Assembly (NCBI GenBank): GCA_017463365.1
Contig: JAFTPH010000049.1
Span: forward strand, 1 to 41,681
Direction: 5' to 3'
DNA from: Bacilli bacterium
Lineage (GTDB): Bacteria > Bacillota_I > Bacilli_A > ML615J-28 > CAG-313
Length of the DNA: 41,681 nt
Shown here: one piece after another, positions 15,420 through 41,681 of the stretch
Numbering within the stretch: the first letter of the stretch is position 1
Layout: the number at the start of each line of letters is the position of its first letter
Notes under the pieces: generated by a model
Database searches by the model: none
What the model saw: only the letters and a program-made list of their open reading frames with translations
What the model was told of the DNA's origin: nothing
Position numbers and translations under genes: made by a program

Positions 15420-15899
15420 TTACACCTCAATTGCTTCTACAAATTTTAATAACGATAAAGCTTTTTCTGTTGAAAAAACATATTGATTATACAATTTTTT
15501 TATTTTTAAAGCTTCTATTGCTTGATCTTTGGTTAATAAACCTGTTGAATAAACTTGTAATGTTCTATATACATCATCATCCGCAACTGGTCCTATTATC
15601 AAATCAAATGATTCTTTATTATAATTACCATTCCTGTTTTCCGAAACAAAATCTAACCACTCTTCGCTGGGTTCATTAAAGCTTTTAACACTAATTAGGC
15701 CACATAACTTTGTTTCATCAAGTTCATAAACATTTAAAATTCCTTTACCTCCTCTTTTTGTGGCTACTTTTTCCGCAAAACTAATTCCTTGTTCTTTATT
15801 TGTTGTTGTATAAAAACCATAACCAAAATCTAAGAATCTATTTTGAGGTACTAATTTTGGATTTTCAACAACAACATTACTCCCATGATATAGAGTCAT
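15420..15899 (-). CDS. DUF3990 protein, ADP-ribosyltransferase-like, putative toxin
   Basis: 159 residues. The start [16 protein letters not shown], then [16 protein letters not shown] (about 22-37) and the late [11 protein letters not shown] (about 138-148) are the three signature blocks of DUF3990, a family placed in the ADP-ribosyltransferase superfamily. They would supply the H of an H-Y-x triad, the Tyr/Thr-Thr strand and the Gln-x-Val-Phe region that replaces the classical Glu. Such proteins are suspected to modify nucleic acid or protein using NAD and to act as toxins. It overlaps the preceding gene by ATGA and is followed at once by two small genes. The catalytic activity has not been shown by the sequence alone. 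Confidence 0.8.
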
Positions 15900-20029: not shown

Positions 20030-20047
20030 ATATATGAGGTGCATTTT

Positions 20048-21679
20048 ATGAAAACTTTGTTAATTGGTATTAATTCAAAATATATTCATCCTGCTTTAGC
20101 TATATATCAATTAGCTAAAAATACAACATACGATGTTACTACTAAAGAATTCACTATTAAAGACCAAGTAAGTAATATTTTTGCTTATATTAAAGAAGAA
20201 AATCCAACTCTTGTTGGATTTAGTGTTTATATTTGGAATATTCAAATAGTTAAAGAATTATCGATGTTAATTAAAGAAAACTTACCAAATACAAATATAC
20301 TTTATGGTGGACCAGAAGTATCATATGATGCTGATACATATTTATTAAATAACTATGCTGATTATATTATATATAGTGAAGGAGAAGAAAGTTTTCATTT
20401 ATTATTAGATGCTTTAAATAATAATCGCTTATTAAATGATGTTCCTAACCTTTCCTATTTAGAAAATAATACCGTTATTACTACTCCAAATATTTTACCA
20501 GATCTAAATAAAATTAAACTTGCAACTCTTGATGTAAAAGATTTTGAAAAACGCATTGTTTATTTAGAATCAAGTAGAGGTTGCCCATATCGCTGTAGTT
20601 ATTGTGTCGCATCTACTTCTAATAAGGTAAGAATGTTTCCTCTACCATATATTTTAGATATCTTAAAGATCTTAATGGAAAAAGAGACTAAAACAATTAA
20701 GTTCTTAGATCGTACCTTCAACGCAGATACAAATTACTTAACTTCTATTTTGGATTTTATTGAAGAACATAATATATCTACAACTTTCCAATTTGAAATT
20801 GTGATTGATCGTTTAACTAAAGAATTAATTGAAAAAATTGGTAATTATCAAAATAGTAATTTACGTTTTGAAATTGGTATCCAATCAACTAACGATGTAG
20901 TTAACAAAAGCATTAGACGTCACCAAAATATGGATTTAGTTAAAGAAAATATCCTTTTATTAAATCAATATCCTCATATTACTTTACATGTAGACTTGAT
21001 TGCGGGACTACCATTTGAAGACCTTGCTTCTTTTAGAAAATCTTTTAATGAAACATTTAGTTTGTTCGCTGGTGAACTACAACTTGGTTTTTTAAAGTTT
21101 TTAAAAGGTACACACCTTATGACGATGATTTTAGAACATGGTTATATTTATGATCAAAATCCACCATATGAAATTATAGAAAACAAATATATATCGAAAG
21201 AAGAATTACAAGAAATCCATAAAGTTGAAGCAACTTTAGAAAAATTCTATAACAGTAATAGATTTAAAAATTTATGGGAATATATTAAAAATAATAATCT
21301 AATTACAGATTATTATCAATTCTTCTTAGATTTCTATAATTATTTAGATAAACTAAGCTTTTCATATTTTGACTATCAAGTAATTGATTTGTTTAATCAC
21401 TTCGATGATTTTTTAAAAAGTTCTTTCCTTAATATATATAATGATTTACATGAAATGTTAATTATTGATTATTATAGCTTTTATAAAGTAAAACCAAAAC
21501 TTTGGCGAAGCACAACTTTATCAAAAGAAGAAAAAGCTGAAGTTTATCCAGTGATTGTTTCAAAACTAAATAATTATACTTTAGAAGATTTATATCGTTA
21601 TGCTTTAGTTTTAAAACTTAAAGAAAAATATTTTGTGATCATTTATCAAAATCATCAAAATAAATATTATTTTATATAG
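20048..21679 (+). CDS. B12-binding-domain radical-SAM protein (DUF4080-type)
   Basis: 543 residues. Residues about 1-135 form a Rossmann-like cobalamin-binding domain (TLLIGINSKYIHPALAIYQL at the start, LVGFSVYIWN, and ILYGGPEVSYD). The radical-SAM motif SSRGCPYRCSYC follows (Cys near 177, 181, 184), with the TIM-barrel body to about 370, and a C-terminal alpha-helical region resembling DUF4080. Such proteins use S-adenosylmethionine and often methylcobalamin for methylations or rearrangements of unknown substrates. An in-frame GTG nine bases upstream exists, but GAGGTG serves as the ribosome site for the ATG at 20048. The gene stands alone with its own promoter and terminator. Confidence 0.88.
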   Translation: MKTLLIGINSKYIHPALAIYQLAKNTTYDVTTKEFTIKDQVSNIFAYIKEENPTLVGFSVYIWNIQIVKELSMLIKENLPNTNILYGGPEVSYDADTYLLNNYADYIIYSEGEESFHLLLDALNNNRLLNDVPNLSYLENNTVITTPNILPDLNKIKLATLDVKDFEKRIVYLESSRGCPYRCSYCVASTSNKVRMFPLPYILDILKILMEKETKTIKFLDRTFNADTNYLTSILDFIEEHNISTTFQFEIVIDRLTKELIEKIGNYQNSNLRFEIGIQSTNDVVNKSIRRHQNMDLVKENILLLNQYPHITLHVDLIAGLPFEDLASFRKSFNETFSLFAGELQLGFLKFLKGTHLMTMILEHGYIYDQNPPYEIIENKYISKEELQEIHKVEATLEKFYNSNRFKNLWEYIKNNNLITDYYQFFLDFYNYLDKLSFSYFDYQVIDLFNHFDDFLKSSFLNIYNDLHEMLIIDYYSFYKVKPKLWRSTTLSKEEKAEVYPVIVSKLNNYTLEDLYRYALVLKLKEKYFVIIYQNHQNKYYFI

Positions 21680-39965: not shown

Positions 39966-40494
39966 TTATGTTTCGGCGTATTCACCTTTTTTACTTTTCT
40001 TCGATACTTTAATAAATTTTCTTAAAACATAAAATATTCCACCAAAGAAAAATGAACAAAATAATATTTTGAAAAATATTCCTCTTACTACCGAATCAGA
40101 AGTTGATACATATATTAATTGACTATCAGTACCGTTTGTAAGAACTTCTAGCTGTGAATACCCTCCACGAATAAATTTCATAATACTTTTATTTTTTAAA
40201 ACATATGTTTTATTTCCAATAGTTTTTTCTTTATTATCACTAAGTTCATTCCAATATTTGTTATTTGCTTTATTATCAATTATCTCTTTTACACTAATAA
40301 TATTAGCATTTTGATCAACTTCTATTTGAAGTGATGATCTTACAGAATAAATTAATATATTATTTTCTTCCCACTCGATATGAATTTCTATCTTTAGTAG
40401 AACTAACCTTTATATTAATATTTATCATTTTTTAGGATCTATAAAATTCTTTGTTTTTAAAATGTTTATTTTTCACAAAATCACTATTAAACAT
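39966..40494 (-). pseudogene. Degraded gene next to the Rhs locus (in-frame stop plus frameshift)
   Basis: The intact remnant is a 71-codon tail (39966-40181) with one transmembrane helix and a basic end. Reading back upstream, the same frame stays open to about 40409 with sensible protein (for example IEIHIEWEENNILIYS and SSLQIEVDQNANIISVKE) but has no start codon. The likely beginning lies in another frame: ATG at 40428 (MININIKVSSTK), or ATG at 40494, four bases after the stop of the gene before it, which meets an in-frame TAA just ahead of 40428. Joining the parts needs a one-base shift between about 40360 and 40409. This looks like a decayed gene of about 175 codons, perhaps a second immunity gene; a sequencing error is the alternative. 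Confidence 0.55.
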
Positions 40495-40498
40495 GTTT

Positions 40499-40966
40499 TT
40501 ATCTGAATATATCAATTATTTCCTGTTTCTTTGGAAAATCTATCATTGTATTTGGTTTATATTTTATAATAATGTGGTTTTTCATTAAATAAATCTTTAT
40601 TATATCTGATTTTTTAAATTCAATTACTTTTCCGTTTTTCTTACATGTTACTTTATATAATTCATCGTTTTTTTCTAAAACATATTTTATTATCCCGTTT
40701 TCAGCATTTTTTTCAAAACTTAATTTTATTGCTTTTTTTGCATTATTATGAACATTAATAATCACACAGATCAAAAAAACACACGCAACCAAACTTGAAA
40801 TACCATGTATAAGATACTTAGAATCTCCAAACAATCCGATCAACATAAAGTAAATTGCTAAAATACCAAACAGTATTAACATAACTATAGCAGGTTTGCT
40901 TTGTGATAAACTTACTTCTTTAATTCTATTTTTCACATCACTAATATTATAACTAAACTCAAACAT
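40499..40966 (-). CDS. Two-helix membrane protein (YcxB-like), candidate Rhs immunity protein
   Basis: 155 residues: a short cytoplasmic start, two transmembrane helices (about 25-45 and 52-73) and a C-terminal soluble domain (about 80-155) whose shape (VLEKNDELYKVTCKKNGKV, then FKKSDIIKIYLMKNHIIIKY) resembles the YcxB/DUF-type domain. The gene begins 26 bases after the Rhs stop with AGAAAGGAG, so it is in the same operon. By position it is the candidate immunity protein that protects against the Rhs C-terminal tip. YcxB-like proteins do occur at such loci, but this role is inference. Confidence 0.65.
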   Translation of the reverse strand: MFEFSYNISDVKNRIKEVSLSQSKPAIVMLILFGILAIYFMLIGLFGDSKYLIHGISSLVACVFLICVIINVHNNAKKAIKLSFEKNAENGIIKYVLEKNDELYKVTCKKNGKVIEFKKSDIIKIYLMKNHIIIKYKPNTMIDFPKKQEIIDIFR

Positions 40967-40992
40967 ATTTTCTCCTTTCTATCTTTTACTTT

Positions 40993-41681
40993 TTAATATG
41001 CGTATGCAAAAGAGGCCATCGCAGGAAGTGCTTGTGGTATAAATGCAGCAACTGTAACTAACGCCAATACAGGAATTGTACGAACATATACCTGTGCATA
41101 ATAAGTAACATCGTTATGGGATTTAGTATAACCAATACCAATTTTATCAATTCCAAGTTGAAAATCAAAACTTAAATTTTCCACTCCTATTGACCAGTTG
41201 GCTTCTCCTATTCCATAACTATATGAGTAACTAAATTCATCAATATTAAATGTTATCCCTACTTGATGTTTATGTATTTCATACCAATTATTTCCAAGTT
41301 CTGTAGAAAAAGAAATTGGTTTGCTATCATCTCCAATAATCAATGTGTCTTTAAAACCTTGTTCATAACCGCAAAAAACAGCATCTTCTCCATCACTTAT
41401 ATCATATTGCGTGCTTTCTACGTAGAAACCAAACGTATCCTTTACCCATTCTCCAATAGAGAGCCAAAAAGATTCCCAATCGTTTCCAGTATAATCAACT
41501 CTATTTACCGGATTACCCTCACAATAAGAGTATAGATTACAACTAAAGATAGTACCTGTTACTCCTAAGTATTCTACTTCATCCATTGTGATGAATCTTC
41601 CAATACTTGAATCGTAATATCTGCTATTTAGATAATACCATGAAGTTTCTGTATCAAAATAATATGAACGATATCTATATG
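40993..41681 (-). CDS. Rhs-repeat protein, C-terminal part with variable tip (partial)
   Basis: Open through the right edge of the window; 228 residues are visible. The first part is the Rhs core ending: YRYRSYYFDTETSWYYLNSR, YYDSSIGRFITMDEVEYLG, then NLYSYCEGNPVNRVDYTGND, the standard end of the conserved cage. After YTGND comes a variable tip of about 160 residues, the usual place of a polymorphic toxin: a beta-rich stretch (repeated YSYSYGIGEANW, LSFDFQLGIDKIGIGYT) ending with a hydrophobic segment VLALVTVAAFIPQALPAM. I cannot assign the tip to a known toxin family. Internal ATG at 41586 is not the true start. Followed closely by a membrane-protein gene. Confidence 0.85.
   Translation of the reverse strand, partial: YRYRSYYFDTETSWYYLNSRYYDSSIGRFITMDEVEYLGVTGTIFSCNLYSYCEGNPVNRVDYTGNDWESFWLSIGEWVKDTFGFYVESTQYDISDGEDAVFCGYEQGFKDTLIIGDDSKPISFSTELGNNWYEIHKHQVGITFNIDEFSYSYSYGIGEANWSIGVENLSFDFQLGIDKIGIGYTKSHNDVTYYAQVYVRTIPVLALVTVAAFIPQALPAMASFAYAY

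Follow-up and report, generated by a model that had tools for sequence, protein, structure and literature searches.

Orphan tip and immunity modules of Rhs toxins have been described in terms of C-terminal displacement (Jackson et al. 2009, as cited in PMC8125069), and the displacement of Rhs tips was attributed to homologous or illegitimate recombination (PMC8125069; Poole et al. 2011, PMC3150448). Among predicted pore-forming tips, Tox-WTIP is built of two transmembrane helices and carries RxxR and W-TIP motifs (PMC3482391), and XerC/D-type recombinases were noted beside polyimmunity loci in the same paper. TspA and TsaI of the Staphylococcus aureus T7SS are a membrane-depolarising toxin and its immunity protein (PMC9484751).

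We analysed a stretch of 41,681 nucleotides (the window), which is the entire contig C32 of a 1.74-Mb genome assembled in 65 contigs. The features at its right end were as follows.

39966..40385, minus strand: 3' remnant of a gene whose product is membrane-anchored and probably extracellular, with the 5' half missing and no start codon at its head (from the paralogue on C10)
40386..40498, minus strand: spacer with a stop and a frame change, without homology to the paralogue (from sequence and alignment)
40499..40966, minus strand: predicted immunity protein of 155 aa with two transmembrane helices and a six-stranded domain (from the homologue in genome G484, hydropathy and a low-confidence model)
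40972..40979, minus strand: Shine-Dalgarno-like stretch AGAAAGGAG, with the start codon (ATG) of the immunity gene 5 nt further on (from sequence)
40993..41484, minus strand: Rhs tip, predicted toxin domain with a helix, nine strands and a hydrophobic C-terminus (from homologues and a model; no family match)
41485..41679, minus strand: 3' end of the conserved Rhs core (TIGR03696, E 4.5e-16), with the remaining gene beyond the contig end
41644..41649, minus strand: intact E-T codons GAAACT of a Y/F-D-x-E-T motif, where displaced tips at other loci join DNA of the recombinase side (from junction alignment with displaced tips)

Rhs end and tip family

The minus-strand frame 40993-41679 was open at the contig end, and its first 65 residues matched TIGR03696 with 59.1 bits against a cut-off of 32.5, ending at DYTGND. 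The first-pass annotation had placed an Rhs end with a beta-rich, C-terminally hydrophobic tip at this edge, and both are real. The missing part of the gene was on no other contig of the source assembly, and besides the window contig near-complete rhs genes were found only on C44 and C43. The core end could be aligned on C44, C43, C5 and C65 of the same genome, where the tips were unlike that of the window. A Mur-ligase-like gene (identified by eye) lay immediately 5' of both intact rhs genes (L008 6159-7529; L009 663-1991).

The window tip has 163 residues, is beta-rich and contains one hydrophobic stretch only, at its end. A search of 395 genomes of the class with the single sequence gave one weak match, which was inside another Rhs protein, and the two sequences combined as a profile gave further family members. 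A scan of a named genome collection with an alignment of five tips put names to carriers of the family, which were an Anaeroplasmataceae MAG, a Haloplasma contractile MAG, an Erysipelotrichales MAG and the type strain Haploplasma modicum ATCC 29102. In total, relatives of the tip were found in five other Bacilli genomes, with a decayed fragment in a sixth, from at least two orders besides that of the window. Since only 5 of the 395 sampled genomes carried the family at E ≤ 0.001 (one of the five as a decayed fragment), the family is rare and patchy. A decayed member with in-frame stops was seen at L053 (G371 C10:25607-25780). Of the weak matches L013, L014, L023 and L024, the first two sit within unrelated genes. 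Each member either forms the end of an Rhs protein or follows a fragment of an Rhs core, and the closest relative (45% identity over 154 aa, E 2e-49) was in G484, which belongs to the same class but to a different order.

The first-pass annotation had not recognised the tip domain, and our searches gave no match for the tip family in Pfam, NCBIfam or PDB sequences. PADLOC and PHROGs held no tip family either, the PHROG match spanning mainly the Rhs core. The window tip missed the cut-off of Ntox25 (PF15530) with 12.8 bits against 25, and the best family member reached E 0.053. It was also not a Tox-WTIP, having no Pfam match and one hydrophobic stretch rather than two transmembrane helices. 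No tip relatives were found in viral contigs, phages or plasmids, the plasmid matches to the Rhs core being ordinary Rhs, and the window tip alone as query gave no match in the genome contig collection. The tip belongs to an undescribed family of predicted toxins of low-GC Bacilli.

Members share W-rich motifs and motifs of the GKPINF...W..FWEYS type, and every complete tip except that of G082 had a strongly hydrophobic C-terminus. An AF2 model from six sequences (pLDDT 76.7, pTM 0.65) gave an N-terminal helix, nine consecutive strands and C-terminal helices. The best Foldseek match of this model was a designed transmembrane beta-barrel, without significance.

Neighbour proteins and possible action at the membrane

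The gene for the 155-residue protein starts 26 bp downstream of the tip and has a strong Shine-Dalgarno stretch. In G484 a 157-aa homologue of this protein (BLASTP E 2e-11) directly follows the closest tip, and the shuffle test between the two gave z 14.6 for the whole proteins and z 8.3 when only the C-terminal domain, past the membrane helices, was compared. G484 was the only other genome with the same tip-immunity pairing as the window. The neighbours of the tips in G388, H. modicum, G499 (two copies) and G082 begin with one or two helices, the rest of the protein being TPR-like. They were alike in most pairwise shuffle tests (z up to 36.8), and that of G388 stood furthest from the others. 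So each of the two branches of the toxin is inherited with its own family of membrane-protein neighbours, as would be expected of toxin-immunity pairs. The effector-immunity reading of the first-pass annotation is strengthened, because the pair turns up again in G484, outside the order to which the window belongs.

YcxB (PF14317) and DUF5381 (PF17353) are families with membrane helices and a small beta domain. The 155-residue protein had been called a two-helix YcxB-like protein, of which the two hydrophobic helices stand while the likeness to YcxB is below threshold: in Pfam the window protein matched neither family, and its G484 homologue stayed below threshold with YcxB (E 0.048, 13.8 bits against a cut-off of 23.3) and below the curated cut-off with DUF5381 (E 0.0028). 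Homology to the proteins with two transmembrane helices on C65 and in H. modicum was not supported by shuffle comparison either, so the plan of two helices and a small domain may be convergent.

From sequence comparison, the case that 40499-41679 encodes a predicted toxin-immunity pair of an undescribed family, within a known kind of system, is solid. By hydropathy every tip neighbour protein had one or two transmembrane helices, and the target of the tip is therefore placed at the membrane. The toxicity of the tip, its membrane target, its neutralisation by the neighbour and the delivery route are what we infer from these comparisons. An Rhs shell would deliver the tip to an adjacent cell, whose cytoplasmic membrane would be entered or damaged by the beta domain with its hydrophobic C-terminus. 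In the producer, the two-helix immunity protein would sit in the membrane and block the tip there. Membrane attack is favoured by the model with a helix and nine strands, the hydrophobic C-terminus and the immunity candidates, which are all membrane proteins. Because Foldseek returned nothing at E ≤ 1e-3, pore formation is argued from the composition of the tip and the location of the immunity proteins.

Membrane-bound immunity proteins would also fit a tip that is an enzyme whose substrate is associated with the membrane (lipid, lipid II or a membrane protein), the immunity protein being at the membrane since the target is. A few polar residues are well conserved, namely the K/R of GKPINF, an R before the C-terminus and the E of a GGE turn. 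But the alignment of eight members had no invariant catalytic-type residue, so no catalytic set runs through the family, and the tip matched no enzyme family or PDB sequence, and we regard an enzyme as unlikely. We give a probability of roughly 0.6 to the joint reading that the locus is an rhs 3' end with its cognate immunity gene, that the tip belongs to an undescribed family and damages membranes, and that the third gene is a bystander.

This third gene had been taken as broken by an in-frame stop and a frameshift. The interruptions are there, but they do not lie in a full gene with two lesions, as only a 3' remnant was found. Its counterpart is an intact paralogue of 223 residues on C10, which it matches over residues 97-223 (55% aa and 69% nt identity), with homology beginning at window position 40383, just past the frame change, and the approximately 115 bp ahead of it had no homology to the paralogue. 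Differences between remnant and paralogue by codon position were 0.34/0.24/0.36, which is too weak for dating the decay. The paralogue starts with a hydrophobic, signal-like segment and has a membrane helix at its C-terminus. It lies in a chromosomal region and adjoins lepB-, rbgA- and rnhB-type genes and a BspA-like lipoprotein gene (by eye from translations).

The first-pass annotation had further suggested a decayed, possibly orphan, immunity gene, in present terms that of an earlier tip. This would suit its transmembrane helix and its position as the next gene after the immunity gene, in the same orientation, but the intact paralogue lies away from Rhs loci, the remnant has no similarity to the window immunity protein (z 0.8), and no homologue at E ≤ 0.001 was found among 42 other genomes of the order. 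We therefore consider an orphan immunity gene very improbable and abandon this part of the annotation. By its alignment with the paralogue, the third gene is a 5'-truncated bystander copy of a surface-protein-like gene. Elsewhere in the window, the minus-strand gene at 15420-15899 encodes a DUF3990 protein (E 1.4e-50).

Recombinase arrays at other rhs loci

At other rhs loci of the source genome and its relatives, rhs, tip and immunity gene were followed by units of a large serine recombinase, a tip and an immunity gene. C5 and C65 carried displaced Rhs tips (arrays at L010, C5, 2-2401, and L011, C65, 2-7484). Each of these tips began directly after a large serine recombinase gene and had a small gene of its own downstream, and the ends of C44 and C43 fell inside recombinase copies downstream of the intact rhs. 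A large serine recombinase ended directly upstream of a displaced tip on C5, C65 (twice), in G010 (twice), G016, G038, G499 and H. modicum (twice), and the recombinases beside displaced tips had the full set of Resolvase, Recombinase, Zn ribbon and DUF4368. Within the window itself there was no large serine recombinase, half-site or approximately 0.9-kb noncoding element, and the intact target motif alone was present. A 546-aa gene at 20039-21679, considered as a recombinase, was ruled out as a radical-SAM/B12 protein.

The Rhs core end was present in 26 of 43 genomes of the order. By hand count in the order, the alignment of short internal frames to the core started no earlier than residue 7-11 in about 20 cases and at residue 1-3 in about nine. 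In most of these frames, DNA homology to intact rhs started at or just before the E-T codons (GA|RAC). Seven junctions from three genera had the 27-nt sequence TGAGGATACTCGTGAGAG(A/C)CCCGTCGA as their left side, differing from it by a few changes at most; these junctions were adjacent to a recombinase on C5, C65 and in G010, and had no adjacent recombinase in G010, G008 (twice) and G007. Recombinase-less cassettes carried an approximately 0.9-kb noncoding stretch, which was also found 5' of the recombinase on C44 and C65 and may mark cassettes that are moved in trans. This stretch precedes displaced tips or the recombinase gene and is roughly 80-92% identical across genera (L094 5127-6600; L096 880-1800 and 7900-8760; L098 1960-3000; L008 223-928; L011 5167-6234). 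Restriction-modification/methyltransferase-like genes, possibly further cargo, were seen between recombinase cassettes (L095 9084-13678; L009 7854-10001), and at L112 724-970 the recombinase-side half-site was followed by DNA unlike Rhs, perhaps an insertion at another target.

Two arrays held the toxin family of the window. In H. modicum (L048, NZ_JHYB01000003, 8910-16813) the rhs end, tip and immunity gene were followed by two units of recombinase, tip and immunity gene, of which the last tip is a member. The joint here was further along the core, at NPVMYSD rather than at the E-T codons, which suggests a second recombinase type with a different core target. In the Erysipelotrichales MAG an intact rhs with a tip of the family was followed by a replication-like gene, a recombinase and a second such tip. 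A beta-rich tip without known toxin match would agree with an Rhs/YD protein that ends in a surface or adhesion domain and is not toxic, with the neighbour as a membrane assembly factor. Yet recombinase arrays (L028, L029/L048) contain tips of the family as displaced modules, each accompanied by a neighbour gene of its own, which is usual for toxin-immunity modules and not for adhesins, so we find an adhesion domain quite improbable.

Because most displaced tips begin at a fixed E-T codon pair, several of them behind a shared half-site, tip exchange appears to be site-specific, and the junctions are most naturally read as places where cassettes of tip and immunity gene entered the rhs core at a specific site. 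Large serine recombinases would insert circular cassettes of tip, immunity gene and optionally recombinase at the conserved E-T codons, which would fuse the new tip in frame to the Rhs core and push the old tip and its immunity gene downstream. Since the window is without recombinase elements, its own rhs is tied to the arrays only through the tip family and the intact motif at 41644-41649, whose E-T codons are separated from the contig end by 32 bases. That the rhs core is a recombination platform including that of the window, the contig breaking 32 bp before the target since the population carries alternative tips, is possible but doubtful.

The recombinase arrays would supply both an enzyme and a target site for the exchange of Rhs tips without breakage of the frame, which is a long-standing question. 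We found no report of Rhs or polymorphic toxins combined with serine recombinases or integrases in the open-licence PMC library searched, which does not by itself prove novelty. The decayed third gene is ordinary, and the interest is raised by the arrays that hold the same toxin family elsewhere. The predicted membrane-acting tip family and two distinct membrane immunity families extend the catalogue of polymorphic toxins into little-studied Bacilli, including relatives of the wall-less Acholeplasmatales.

Comparison with described systems

The locus is like the Rhs systems with orphan modules in its Rhs core, a variable tip past a conserved border, an adjacent immunity gene and displaced modules elsewhere, but the tip and immunity families are new, and in these Bacilli many displaced tips have a fixed codon pair as their start, with a large serine recombinase ahead of several of them. 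With Tox-WTIP and other non-enzymatic predicted pore-forming tips it shares a hydrophobic C-terminal segment and the absence of a catalytic set, while differing in the nine-strand domain before a single hydrophobic stretch. TspA/TsaI is comparable as a membrane-active polymorphic toxin with its own immunity protein, and its carrier is different. YcxB and DUF5381 resemble the 155-residue protein in general layout, without a Pfam match of the window protein to either. The recombinases beside displaced tips have the same domain set as other large serine recombinases, but their apparent target is a conserved motif of the Rhs core and their cargo an in-frame toxin tip with its immunity gene.
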